From the NCBI GenBank assembly GCA_012513435.1, contig JAAZCE010000040.1, forward strand, positions 158,570 through 222,569: a stretch of DNA of 64,000 bases, written 5' to 3'. Below are positions 59,970-64,000 of the stretch, piece by piece. The number at the start of each line of letters is the position of its first letter. Position 1 is the stretch's first letter. Below the pieces are notes generated by a model. That model was given only the letters and a program-made list of their open reading frames with translations. It was not told the origin of the DNA and searched no databases. Source of the stretch: Clostridiales bacterium (lineage in GTDB: Bacteria; Bacillota; Clostridia; Peptostreptococcales; Anaerovoracaceae). The position numbers and the translations under genes are program-made.

Positions 59970-60794
59970 CTATACAAGTTTTTTCATCATGCGTATGTAA
60001 AGCTTCATAAAACTTGCTTTTTCAACTTTTTTGTCGGAAATCAAATCGCAAACACCGATTTTCTTCTCCTTTTCGTATACGTGTATTTCACCTATCTTGC
60101 CACCCTTCTTAACAGGCAGCTTAATCTGCTCATCCATAATTATTTTCTTGCTGATGTTTTTCTCTTCACCCTTCTTGACGGTGACTCCTATAGGTTCTCT
60201 GCTCACGGCCCAAACAAATTTCTTGTCGCCCTTTTCCACGCCGAGTTTTTTGATTTTCTCTCCCTGCTTTGCTATGACAACGGTTTCGTAATTCGCGAAC
60301 CCGTAATCAAGGAGCTTAGACATCTCCGCAAATCTGATATCGCTGGTTTCACAGCCTAACACCACGCCAATCATGGTAGTTCCGTCCCTCTTGGCCGCTC
60401 CAGAAAGACAATAGCCTGCATCCTGTGTAAACCCTGTTTTTACACCTATGGCCCCGCTATAATTTCTTACAAGCCTGTTAGTGTTGGTCAATGTGAACTT
60501 AGTCTGCTTTCCCGGCAAGCCTACTTTGATATCCTCCTGCCATGAAATAAACCATGGCAAAGCAACCTCATGACTCATAAGCTCCTTGGATATCATACCT
60601 ATATCATATGCGCAGGAATAATGTTTCGCCACAGGCAAGCCGTTGGTATTGACAAAATTACTGTTTTCCAACCCCAGATCCGCTGCTCTCTTGTTCATCT
60701 GCTTTACAAAGCCCTCTACACTTCCGCACAAATGCTCAGCCAAAGCCACGCAGGTGGCATTTAAAATTACACCCTTTTGGGAACAATTTTGCAT
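59970..60794 (-). pseudogene. dacF: D-Ala-D-Ala carboxypeptidase (S11, DacF-like), 5' part missing next to a recombinase
   Basis: From CVALAEHLCGS (residue 15 of the open frame) onward this is an S11 carboxypeptidase: NTNGLP, the KTG motif in GAIGVKTGFT, and a C-terminal PBP5_C domain with GEIHVYEKEK. The SxxK nucleophile, the Ser of SxN and the signal peptide are absent. The first 14 codons of the frame are unrelated sequence with no good ribosome site. The break is about 80 bases from the stop of a large serine recombinase gene that lies exactly where the 5' half of dacF should be. This fits integration of an element within dacF; the 5' half should lie beyond the right edge. Confidence 0.85.
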
Positions 60795-60800
60795 GGAAAT
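60745..60800. other. Probable attachment junction (att) of the element in dacF
   Basis: Homology to S11 carboxypeptidases stops between the Asn of the SxN motif (about 60757) and the start of the open frame at 60794. The recombinase stop is at 60829. Large serine integrases normally lie beside their attachment site, so the crossover is expected here. The core dinucleotide cannot be fixed without the other end. Confidence 0.55.
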
Positions 60801-60828
60801 TTGATCTTCACGATTTGGTTAAAGCTTA

Positions 60829-62397
60829 TTAATGAAATCTAAAATACACATTGATTTCTCTATCTGCACCGATGTCAATTTTCTCGATAAGCTCCTCAAT
60901 AACATCCCTGTTTAACTCTTGAATATCCATATAATTTCTAAATTGTTTAACCCACTGCAAAACAGGGCTTTTTCGTTTTTCTTCTGCGGTTTCCTGTTCT
61001 CTCTTCTTTTCATCAAGTTGCTTTTTTAAGCTGGCTTCCCTGCCTTCGTACTTCTTCTTAAAAGAAAGGTATTCTTCTTTAGAAAGAAGTTCATCTACAA
61101 AATCCTCATAAAGTCGTTCTTTATACTCCTTCGTTTTCTGCAGCTGTGCTTCCAGTTCTTGAAGTTGTAAGTCCAAGTCTCTTTTAGTCTCCCTTATTTC
61201 TACCATCCTCAGTTGTTCTATGTCTTCCTCTTTTAAAAGACGTTTGCCTTCTTTTCGGATGGCTTCGATAACAAGTGCTTTCAGTACGGCTTCGGAAATC
61301 TTGTGACTGCTGCAAATGATATTGCCATGAGCTTTATATGTCTTGCATATGTAAATCGTCTCTCGGGGGGTTTTCTTACCTCGCGAATAGCTCTTTGTCA
61401 TGGCTTTGCCACAATCAGCACAAAAAAGCTTCTTCCAAAAGAGAGTTTTGTTTGCTGTTGAATCTACAGGTACTGTCTTCATATGCCTCATTTCCTGCGC
61501 CATATCAAAAACCTTCTCGTCCACAATTGACTCATGGGTGTTTTCTACCTTTATCCATTCTTTCTGGGGCAGGCGCTTTTTATACTTTGACTTATAGGAA
61601 ATCTTACAGCATTTGTTTTGTATGGTATGTCCCAAATAAACTTCATTCTGCAGAATGTCCGAGACTGTCTGAAATGTCCATGGCCTAGATTCTTTTATCT
61701 CATGTGCATTATGATACTTCAATCCTAAGATTTTTCTCTTATATACGCTTGGCCGTAGCACATTTTCAACCGTTAATATTTTTGCAATCTTGGCTTTACC
61801 GAATCCTGATAGATATAAAGAGTATATCCGCCTTACTATTTCAGCTGCATACGGATCAACTATCAAATGATGATTATCTTCGGGGTCTTTTAGATATCCA
61901 TATGGCGGTGATGATGCCAAATACTCCCCATTGATCTGCTTTATACGATAGCTTGCCTTCACGCTCTCTGAAAGATCCTGGCAATACCATTCGTTGACAA
62001 GGCCGTTTATCTGCCTTGCTTTCTTATTCCCCTTAACCGAAGTGTCCACATTGTCCACAACTCCGATAAAGCGTATACCCCATTGAATAAACTCATTATG
62101 CAGATACTTTTCCAAATGCTCAATGTTTCTCGTAAATCTAGCTTGAGTCTTGGCTATTATGATTTCAAAACATCCTTCTTTTGCATTCTCGATTAGTCGC
62201 TCGAATCCGGGGCGGTCCTCATAGAGCCCGCTGTAATCATCATCCCGATACACTCTTACTACATTAAAATCATGTTCCTTCGCATATTGCATCAGCATGG
62301 CTTCTTGGTTTTTGATGGATTGGCTGAATTTATCTTGCCCGCCTTTATCTATGTCTTCCTTTGACAGCCTACAATAAATAGCAGTCCTACATTTCAT
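60829..62397 (-). CDS. Large serine recombinase (TndX/CcrB-like integrase)
   Basis: The 522-residue site-specific recombinase has a resolvase domain with catalytic Ser12 (YCRLSKED), a DDDYSG motif and ARFTRN, then a Recombinase domain (about 170-270), a zinc ribbon (FCADCGKAM...ICSSH near residues 330-375) and a coiled coil (about 395-475). Such enzymes integrate and excise phages and conjugative or mobilisable transposons. ATG 62397 has GGAGGT directly upstream; an in-frame start at 62433 is ignored. It abuts the broken dacF gene and is preceded by a small 42-codon ORF. Confidence 0.96.
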   Translation of the reverse strand: MKCRTAIYCRLSKEDIDKGGQDKFSQSIKNQEAMLMQYAKEHDFNVVRVYRDDDYSGLYEDRPGFERLIENAKEGCFEIIIAKTQARFTRNIEHLEKYLHNEFIQWGIRFIGVVDNVDTSVKGNKKARQINGLVNEWYCQDLSESVKASYRIKQINGEYLASSPPYGYLKDPEDNHHLIVDPYAAEIVRRIYSLYLSGFGKAKIAKILTVENVLRPSVYKRKILGLKYHNAHEIKESRPWTFQTVSDILQNEVYLGHTIQNKCCKISYKSKYKKRLPQKEWIKVENTHESIVDEKVFDMAQEMRHMKTVPVDSTANKTLFWKKLFCADCGKAMTKSYSRGKKTPRETIYICKTYKAHGNIICSSHKISEAVLKALVIEAIRKEGKRLLKEEDIEQLRMVEIRETKRDLDLQLQELEAQLQKTKEYKERLYEDFVDELLSKEEYLSFKKKYEGREASLKKQLDEKKREQETAEEKRKSPVLQWVKQFRNYMDIQELNRDVIEELIEKIDIGADREINVYFRFH

Positions 62398-62460
62398 TTT
62401 ACCTCCGTTCCCGGTATTATAATTCCAGTGCAATTATATCACCAATTCACTTCGGTTCCT

Positions 62461-62589
62461 TCATAGGACTGCAGATTTTACAAGCAAACGTCTGATCACA
62501 TTTACCATGCATTCGACCAAACTTTTATCACCGTACTTAATATTCACCTTGTATTCTTCTAGGCTAACCTGTATCTTATCTTTATCCAT
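62461..62589 (-). CDS. Small protein upstream of the recombinase
   Basis: The 42-codon frame starts at ATG 62589 with AAAGGGG ten bases upstream and reads MDKDKIQVSLEEYKVNIKYG, ending VIRRLLVKSAVL. It is 63 bp upstream of the recombinase gene. Small ORFs in this place are common in elements with serine recombinases and may regulate integration or excision. No family is recognised with certainty. The longer in-frame start at 62664 lacks a ribosome site. Confidence 0.55.
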   Translation of the reverse strand: MDKDKIQVSLEEYKVNIKYGDKSLVECMVNVIRRLLVKSAVL

Positions 62590-63149
62590 AATGTCTATGC
62601 CCCTTTCTGCCCAACTATTACAATGTATTAAGCAACAAGTATTTATATTCTGATAAACACCCATACTCTTAATACGTTAGGAGTCAGCAAAAATTCGAAG
62701 GCACACGGACACTACACCGTAAATTCACAAGTTACTCAAAATTGCAGACATCGTAAACGGTAAACCATTGAATTAAAACATCTTAACTACGAACAATTTG
62801 GATAGCTTATGAAGGGATTCACTATAGAGCCGGCAATAAAAAAGATAAAGCCGCCTGAAAGCATACTTTAGTATTTTATCAAACGCTTGAAATTTCAATG
62901 CTTTTACAATAACTAATTATTAAAAAACACTTTTTTTGTTCCTAAAAATGTAGTACAATATATATTCGGACAGTAAAAATGTCTGGACGGAATTTACATA
63001 TAAAATAGACGGTGAAAATTATAGTGTTCAAAGCGCGGGACATTTGTATTGGATAAAAACAAGATCAACAGTAGAATTGAGAGTATGATACTAAAGCATT
63101 TTATTATTGTATCAAGAACAAAAATCATTATCACAGGAGGTCCTTCGGA
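62590..63149. other. Non-coding stretch inside the putative mobile element
   Basis: About 560 AT-rich bases separate the small ORF from the ABC permease gene. Short protein-like runs occur on the plus strand (for example LDKNKINSRIESMILKHF near 63049, in frame through to 63185), but none has a start with a ribosome site. I found no second attachment site and no part of dacF here. Confidence 0.4.
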
Positions 63150-64000
63150 TCAAAGCTCATTTATACATTTCTCCGCAATTTTATAAAACCACTGATGAGC
63201 AAATGCCGTTAAAACAACCGCTGCCACCAGCACCACACCTACTACTAGTATCAACATAGTCCCGAAAGCCATATGCAGCAACGCACCTATTCCAATCAAT
63301 ACTACTACATAAAGCACAGGTCCCACGAGGCTGACCAGCAAATGGTTGTTTGTCGCTGCAGCATACTCTGTCTCCCAGTTCAACATAGGATCCTTGCAAT
63401 CCAGGTACAACTGCAGATCATTTCCAAATATAATCACGGCTACAGAAAGCACAAGACTGGCCGGAATCAGTAGCACACTAATAGAAATGTTCAAGCACAC
63501 ATAATCCATCGCAATCAAAAACGGAAGTGCACCTGCCAGTGCAAGATAAAGGCCAATGCGCGATTTTACCGAGAGCTGGGTTTTCATAGCTACCGGCATC
63601 GTTTTCATGTACATGAAGCCACTTCCCTCCCGGGAAATACAGGTGGCGGTCACATGGGTAAATGCTACAGCCAATGCAGAGATGATGAGAATCAATCCAA
63701 GAGCTCCATACCAGACGTACGCCTCCATTCCCCCCAGATTTTCCTGCTTCAGCACTTCTATTTCTGGATATATCTGAATCATCACAAACACACAGATCCC
63801 AGCAAACAGCACAATCAGAATAAGTGAGATCAGCACCTCCTGTAAAAAGAAAACAGGTGTGCGAAACAATAGTTGGCGTTCCCTTCTTGCACAGGCACTC
63901 CGCACCGAGCGTCCTGCGCTACTGTAACGCCGGATAGATGCCTCATCTGCACTCTTTTGTCTGCTTCTATGGGAGGATCTCCGAAGAATAGCTTTCAAGA
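63150..64000 (-). CDS. ABC-2 type exporter permease, C-terminal part (5' end beyond window)
   Basis: The frame is open to the right edge, so the N-terminus is missing. About 283 residues are visible: a basic cytoplasmic stretch rich in Arg and Ser, then six to seven membrane spans. Segments SREGSGFMYMKTMPVAMKTQL and LQLYLDCKDPMLNWETE are typical of large putative ABC exporter membrane subunits of Clostridia. Base composition is visibly richer in G and C than the polymer locus. Its ATPase should lie beyond the edge. It may be cargo of the element that begins at dacF. Confidence 0.75.
   Translation of the reverse strand, partial: LKAILRRSSHRSRQKSADEASIRRYSSAGRSVRSACARRERQLLFRTPVFFLQEVLISLILIVLFAGICVFVMIQIYPEIEVLKQENLGGMEAYVWYGALGLILIISALAVAFTHVTATCISREGSGFMYMKTMPVAMKTQLSVKSRIGLYLALAGALPFLIAMDYVCLNISISVLLIPASLVLSVAVIIFGNDLQLYLDCKDPMLNWETEYAAATNNHLLVSLVGPVLYVVVLIGIGALLHMAFGTMLILVVGVVLVAAVVLTAFAHQWFYKIAEKCINEL

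Follow-up and report, generated by a model that had tools for sequence, protein, structure and literature searches.

A putative sporulation-gene intervening element with its own large serine recombinase in dacF of a clostridial genome

A dacF gene in two parts

The stretch of DNA analysed here, which we refer to as the window, comprises 64,000 nucleotides of a Clostridiales bacterium contig (JAAZCE010000040.1, here C48; the window is C48:158570-222569) from the draft genome GCA_012513435.1 (G000). Near its distal end lies part of dacF, a gene for a D-Ala-D-Ala carboxypeptidase, next to the gene of a large serine recombinase (Table 1). Specifically, a minus-strand open reading frame (ORF) at 59970-60794 matches positions 105-238 of the 239 positions of the Peptidase_S11 profile and carries a PBP5_C domain (both Pfam); because the Peptidase_S11 match begins only at position 105, the N-terminal part of dacF is missing from this frame. 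A PF00768 search of G000 returned four matches, namely this 3′ half, a 5′ part of dacF and two complete genes elsewhere that are paralogs, 35% and 36% identical to dacF. The 5′ part (C48:224686-224991, minus strand; Peptidase_S11 positions 5-110) lies on the same contig, so that both junctions, spanned by the stretch labelled L005, are contained within 275 kb of continuous assembly.

The two junctions share the 9-bp word CTGCGTGGC (read in the dacF sense) at a spacing of 5,373 bp, and joining the halves at this core yields one open frame of 420 amino acids (aa) with the motifs SVTK, SAN and KTG and with no stops in either half. A shared 9-bp word is, taken by itself, weak sequence evidence, and its weight comes from its location at the codon that restores the frame. 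These observations bear out much of the initial annotation, which had read the locus as a dacF-like gene cut by a serine-recombinase element. It had placed the 5′ half beyond position 64000 in the same orientation, a core repeat within 60745-60800 and the end of the recombinase gene about 80 bases away (the ORF end at 60829 is 75 bp from the core), and had described the KTG motif and all downstream parts as intact, as they are in the 3′ half with its KTG and PBP5_C. It had also named an intact second dacF, or stops in the distant half, as grounds for abandoning the idea; only the two paralogs were found in the genome, and neither half is interrupted. Its description of the frame as starting at the SxN motif requires correction. 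Although the N-terminal part is indeed missing, the host part begins at 60753, just after SxN, the SAN motif lies on the other half, and the residues NAT before the junction are element sequence rather than dacF's own motif.

Table 1. Features of the split dacF locus (window positions unless marked C48)
Feature	Position	Strand	Basis
dacF 3′ half (CVALAEH to stop; KTG, PBP5_C)	59970..60753	-	Pfam matches, in-frame join
9-bp core CTGCGTGGC at junction	60745..60753	-	junction comparison
attP inverted-repeat arm GTTCCCAAA; other arm at the element's far end, outside the window	60776..60784	-	18/30 pair
Large serine recombinase, 522 aa from likely ATG (534 aa from TTG at 62433)	60829..62397	-	Pfam, NCBIfam, PHROG integrase family
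Small ORF, 42 aa (67 aa read from 62664), candidate directionality factor	62461..62589	-	position, likeness to other carriers
C-terminal part of 567-aa membrane protein, probably ABC permease (cargo)	63150..64000, on to ~64853	-	adjoins ABC ATPase
Second copy of core CTGCGTGGC	C48:224687-224695, past window end	-	junction comparison
dacF 5′ half	C48:224687-225174, past window end	-	genome profile search, in-frame join

Content of the element

Read from the dacF 5′ side, the element encodes a 105-aa membrane ORF, an ABC ATPase, the 567-aa probable permease, the small ORF and the recombinase, which contains the Pfam domains Resolvase, Recombinase, Zn_ribbon_recom and DUF4368 and whose start we place at the ATG from the position of the ribosome site. 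Several marks by which an intervening element would be recognized are present at this locus: the coding region of a sporulation-associated gene, here dacF, is split, the element encodes its own site-specific recombinase, and the junctions share a short core at which removal restores the frame, as removal does in all seven carriers with both halves described below, G000 among them. The 567-aa protein had no family match of its own, and the small ORF had none in domain, NCBIfam and PHROG searches. Phage structural or replication genes, by which a prophage would be recognized, were not found inside the window's element, and no phage structural family was matched there, the ATPase and the 105-aa ORF being compared with Pfam rather than with PHROGs. 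No tRNA was found in L005. Small ORFs like that of the window precede the recombinase in G044, G185, G198, G254 and L096, and a weaker likeness is seen in L099; a different small ORF, also preceding the recombinase, is common to G095, G135 and G186.

Recurrence of the split in related genomes

Comparison with relatives, as the initial annotation had suggested, was made in samples of 49 genomes of the genus, 296 of the family and 391 of the class. Within the genus, full-length dacF orthologs (62-67% identity) occur in six genomes and split ones in two (G000 and G044). In the family, 78 of the 296 genomes have a dacF match at a threshold of at least 47% identity (tallied from the table of matches); 70 of these matches cover the junction and the remaining eight are split within a few codons of the same place (G000, G044, G095, G135, G185, G186, G198 and G254). 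The 5′ half lies on the same contig and strand in five of the eight carriers, giving element lengths of ~5.4 kb (G000), ~8.0 kb (G095), ~18.8 kb (G135, a single contig of 3.37 Mb), ~7.5 kb (G185) and ~58 kb (G186). In G044 and G198 it is on another contig, and no 5′ half was found in G254, whose contig measures 3.8 kb. In every carrier a homologous large serine recombinase directly precedes the 3′ half in the same orientation, the seven others being 37-50% identical to that of the window, and all seven carriers with both halves rejoin in frame without stops (for G186, with its differing cores, alignment was used to set the join). Cuts at nearly the same position recur in seven further species of the family, which suggests, at the level of sequence, an element that is removed when the gene is needed.

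With respect to the point of entry, the carriers fall into two groups. In group A (G000, G044, G185, G198 and G254) the break is at the Cys codon of CVA, whereas in group B (G095, G135 and G186) it precedes this codon by a few others and falls at the SAN motif. Because the recombinases of groups A and B are separate in trees, dacF has probably been a target on two or more occasions. In one recombinase tree the long-branched rows L135, L164 and L167, all three without dacF, stand beside clade A. On a tree of 37 dacF rows, from which G254 was left out, the split state requires five changes, four of them forced by starred branches.

Predicted attachment sites

For each carrier with both ends, the predicted attP was scored as the number of pairing positions of 30 in the joined element ends and compared with 300 shuffles. 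In G000 the dyad is centred on the TG (60751-60752) of the Cys codon, and in the four group A carriers with both ends, all centred on TG, 18/30, 23/30, 26/30 and 20/30 positions pair, scores reached by 1, 0, 0 and 0 of 300 shuffles, respectively, the first value being that of G000. This is the inverted symmetry looked for in an attP. Candidate dyads in group B were set aside: those of G135 and G186 are centred on AA, but shuffles equal them in 178 and 107 of 300 cases, and for G095 the score is reached in 130 of 300.

Conservation of the separated halves

The carriers G135 and G186 allow the age of an insertion to be gauged. Colinear matches, over 350 bp at 73-78% identity, connect the sequences between their dacF halves, and the two recombinases share 90% identity at a synonymous difference (pS) of 0.78; because of these colinear cargo matches and this pS, the insertion is probably older than the split of the two species. 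Over the same pair the dacF 3′ half shows a nonsynonymous difference (pN) of 0.053 at pS 0.54 (dN/dS 0.058), and the 5′ half a pN of 0.074 at pS 0.83. Judged from these sequences, both halves are conserved while split.

Association with sporulation

SpoIVA is encoded in nine of the 49 genus genomes, and a dacF ortholog is present in eight of these nine and in none of the 40 others. The sole genus genome with spoIVA yet no close dacF ortholog, G027, reflects either a draft gap or a true loss. In the window's genome SpoIVA, SpoIID, SpoIIR and SASP were all detected. All 15 genomes tested for SpoIID gave a match, among them the eight with a split dacF (14 above the cut-off; the match of G198 is interrupted by a contig end). 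In another set of 15 genomes, 14 had SpoIIR and 14 had SASP, and its seven split carriers (all but G198) were positive, with the SpoIIR of G185 below the cut-off. A sporulation role of dacF in this organism would rest on the co-occurrence with spoIVA together with the C. difficile data considered below.

Related recombinases in other spore genes

To place the recombinase among its relatives, contigs were scanned with an alignment of eight recombinases, and the best 80 of 243 relatives were inspected. Each of the seven closest (43-50% identity) leads into a dacF 3′ half, and so does the recombinase of L112 (the G186 locus). In the class sample, the two next closest recombinases, from other families (G398, 46%; G521, 44%), also abut a dacF 3′ half, that of G398 holding two TAA codons inside the match. 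At locus L096, from a metagenome-assembled genome (MAG) named Blautia, only 21 dacF residues precede the contig end, and the recombinase is nearly identical to that of G198 and is followed by the first dacF 3′ codons, perhaps owing to a binning error. The end of this contig, 65 nt past the core start, was considered as a hint that empty and filled sites coexist and gave no clear reading.

Other relatives adjoin other spore genes. Half of a csp-like subtilase gene is found no more than 140 nt from the recombinase end in ten of the 80 loci (L101, L102, L104, L111, L116, L118, L126, L142, L153 and L167, the last broken at a different place), and half of a PRK06851 gene lies within 80 nt in seven (L108, L109, L110, L113, L119, L128 and L139), with one or both halves elsewhere in nine more (L103, L106, L107, L114, L115, L121, L132, L133 and L150); similarity to PRK06851 was also seen at L264, L270, L280, L282, L285, L288, L290 and L291. 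The subtilase pieces of L101 and L126 best match CspBA among NCBIfam models, and the pieces of L128 and L139 best match PRK06851 models; these matches are below the whole-protein cut-offs because the pieces are halves. In the five PRK06851 loci with both halves the elements measure 5.6-13.7 kb, and four of the five scripted joins are in frame, the longest shared word in L150 giving an out-of-frame join. PRK06851 proteins are dual-wield NTPases (dwNTPases), and knockouts of C. difficile CD3298 affect spore dipicolinic acid, as cited in excerpts of PMC10949312; the gene lists in PMC3789822, as far as excerpted, place cspBA and CD3298 under sigma-E and dacF under sigma-G.

On a tree of 42 recombinase rows, chosen by hand from the larger set, five labels require five changes (minimum 4; shuffled mean 22.1), so that among the rows tested the recombinase clades do sort by spore-gene target. 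Two recombinase clades probably entered dacF separately, with related clades in csp-like protease and dwNTPase/CD3298 genes. Viral contigs also carry such recombinases: L189 and L190 fall inside clade A, and L191 is listed with a clade-A recombinase, while no dacF match was found among 30 viral loci. An attP-like dyad lies downstream of the recombinase in L189 (on TG) and L190 (on CA), its pairing being scored without a shuffle control. It is possible that L189, L190 and L191 are free phages using dacF as an attachment site.

Proposed mechanism and alternative explanations

We consider it likely, reasoning from sequence, that the window contains a 5,373-bp mobile-derived element placed in the active-site region of dacF by its own large serine recombinase, and that it acts as a sporulation-gene intervening element; the two halves, the core, the in-frame join, the intact recombinase with its attP-type dyad, the spore genes, the recurrence and, in one pair, selection on the halves all lend support to the initial annotation in this respect. 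Specifically, the recombinase would have inserted the element into this spore-associated carboxypeptidase gene, and during spore formation the recombinase and a directionality factor, for which the product of the adjacent small ORF is the probable candidate, would join attL and attR with crossover at the TG of the Cys codon, releasing the element as a circle and restoring dacF. With the element in place no working carboxypeptidase would be expected, as the unjoined 5′ half runs through 15 foreign codons past the junction and then stops, and the 3′ half lacks a signal peptide.

Several observations weigh against this explanation. The small ORF is a candidate recombination directionality factor, an assignment guessed from its position. 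The G000 assembly is a draft in 109 contigs and has 7.41% contamination, the dyads of group B do no better than shuffles (107-178 of 300), and dN/dS is below saturation in one comparison, other pairs having dS >1.7 or being saturated. At columns invariant among intact genes, the split genes differ at 0, 0, 1, 1, 3, 4 and 4 of 92 positions and intact genes at 0-2 of 92-94 (Mann-Whitney p 0.015); this excess falls mostly in group B, where two positions are altered in all three species, and as read from the alignment it is some loosening or clade history rather than decay. Among the closest 80 recombinase loci, 46 could be attributed to none of the three spore genes, including a large clade drawn from MAGs labelled Bacilli or Mycoplasmatota. 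Finally, by analogy, the forespore expression of dacF in C. difficile is a weak point in the likeness to an element of the mother cell.

Large serine recombinases often choose conserved coding motifs. The conserved active-site codons of dacF might serve as the attachment site of a prophage remnant or ordinary integrative element that excises occasionally without any link to sporulation and leaves dacF broken in most cells. The cargo and length of the element, which differ among carriers except in the G135/G186 pair, would fit such an element, as would the viral contigs that bear recombinases of the same clade without dacF. We nevertheless regard it as unlikely given the conservation of both halves in G135 and G186, the sorting of recombinase clades by target and the presence of SpoIID in all eight carriers. 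Recent insertion into a dacF that has become dispensable, with decay too young to show, would agree with a gene split at least four times on the tree, as sporadic insertion and loss might produce, with the additional invariant-site changes in group B, and with group A insertions, the window's included, that may be of any age; we judge it quite improbable, as the G135/G186 insertion is old enough for pS values of 0.54-0.83 and has admitted few protein changes. An assembly error or binning chimera might be suspected from the draft state and contamination of G000, and from G044 and G198, whose halves lie on separate contigs, and G254, where no 5′ half was found, but the chance of this is negligible with both junctions of G000 inside one contig and the same layout in G135, G186, G185 and G095.

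Comparison with known intervening elements

Returning to the putative intervening element in dacF, one of its closest counterparts is the skin of sigK in C. difficile, excised with the recombinase CD1231 and the directionality factor CD1234 (PMC5025042, in excerpt). In both, an element bearing a large serine recombinase of its own interrupts a spore gene; skin excision rejoins the gene and needs a small partner protein, while for the dacF element in-frame rejoining is predicted and a small ORF is present. Unlike sigK, dacF encodes a cell-wall enzyme rather than a sigma factor and may be a forespore target, its excision is here a prediction from sequence, and the recombinase gene precedes the 3′ half. 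The gin element of gerE in B. cereus ATCC10987 (28.6 kb) is, in the excerpted account of PMC5595907, likewise a non-phage element in a spore gene that has serine recombinases and a helper factor, for which the dacF element offers a candidate; gin, in contrast, is longer, has three recombinases and undergoes regulated excision established by experiment. The yin element of yabG in C. botulinum similarly places a large recombinase and a small candidate directionality factor inside a spore gene, but in excerpts of PMC10747680 it is a prophage with observed excision and is called unique to one strain. SP-beta in spsM and vfbin in spoVFB (PMC10747680 and PMC4191935, as excerpted) also interrupt spore genes that can be restored, although they have other targets and are Bacillus prophages or prophage-like elements.

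The intervening elements named in the excerpted parts of PMC10747680 split sigK, spsM, spoVFB, gerE and yabG. We found no description of a dacF intervening element in the open literature, subscription papers lying outside the search, and no open paper joining dacF with prophage, sporulation and recombinase; dacF is absent from the texts of PMC5595907 and PMC10747680. Most likely the element is skin-like and sits in a gene new to the open literature searched. The gene dacF would be added to the list of split spore genes, with two recombinase clades and retention across species. Because related clades sit in two other spore genes, it is now testable whether elements of this kind generally find refuge in spore genes. 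Annotation of clostridial genes will miss or mislabel split spore genes unless it takes such elements into account.

In terms of cell type, dacF of C. difficile belongs to the forespore and is under sigma-G (PMC3738446 and PMC3789822, in excerpt), whereas skin excision in that species is limited to the mother cell, with CD1234 under sigma-E and SpoIIID (excerpts of PMC5025042). If dacF is expressed in the forespore, excision would remove the element from the inherited genome unless it reinserts. By this analogy, the element may exit and reinsert in the spore line, or the family may use the gene in the mother cell. A bolder proposal, which we hold doubtful, is that clostridial large serine recombinases are specialised by clade in spore genes (dacF twice, the csp-type germination protease and dwNTPase/CD3298) and that the dacF element leaves the forespore chromosome, persists as a circle and reinserts after germination. 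This would be a programmed rearrangement in a heritable cell, unlike skin, which leaves only the dying mother cell, and programmed excision in the forespore becomes a testable question.

Upstream motifs

The motif CATA upstream of the small ORF (in the window, the region 62589-62640) exceeds shuffles in all recombinase groups, though not at the window's locus. As a signal of spore targets it was rejected: it occurs at five of seven dacF, three of five csp and six of eight dwNTPase loci (shuffle means 1.0, 0.9 and 1.4), yet also at 22 of 52 others (7.3), and is thus not specific to spore genes. Upstream of dacF itself, the window's genus and most rows of two other genera carry CATAYATT, and several additional genera show the pattern GNATAA-N16-AATATCTT. 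Comparison by eye with the regions upstream of spoIVA, spoIID, spoIIR and ssp in a subset of these genomes tied the patterns to no single sigma factor, and they were not used. An inverted repeat, AACCTCC..GGAGGTT, lies over the ribosome site of dacF in the window's genus, of spoIVA (L044-L052) and of spoIIR (for example L222), and might block translation of read-through transcripts.

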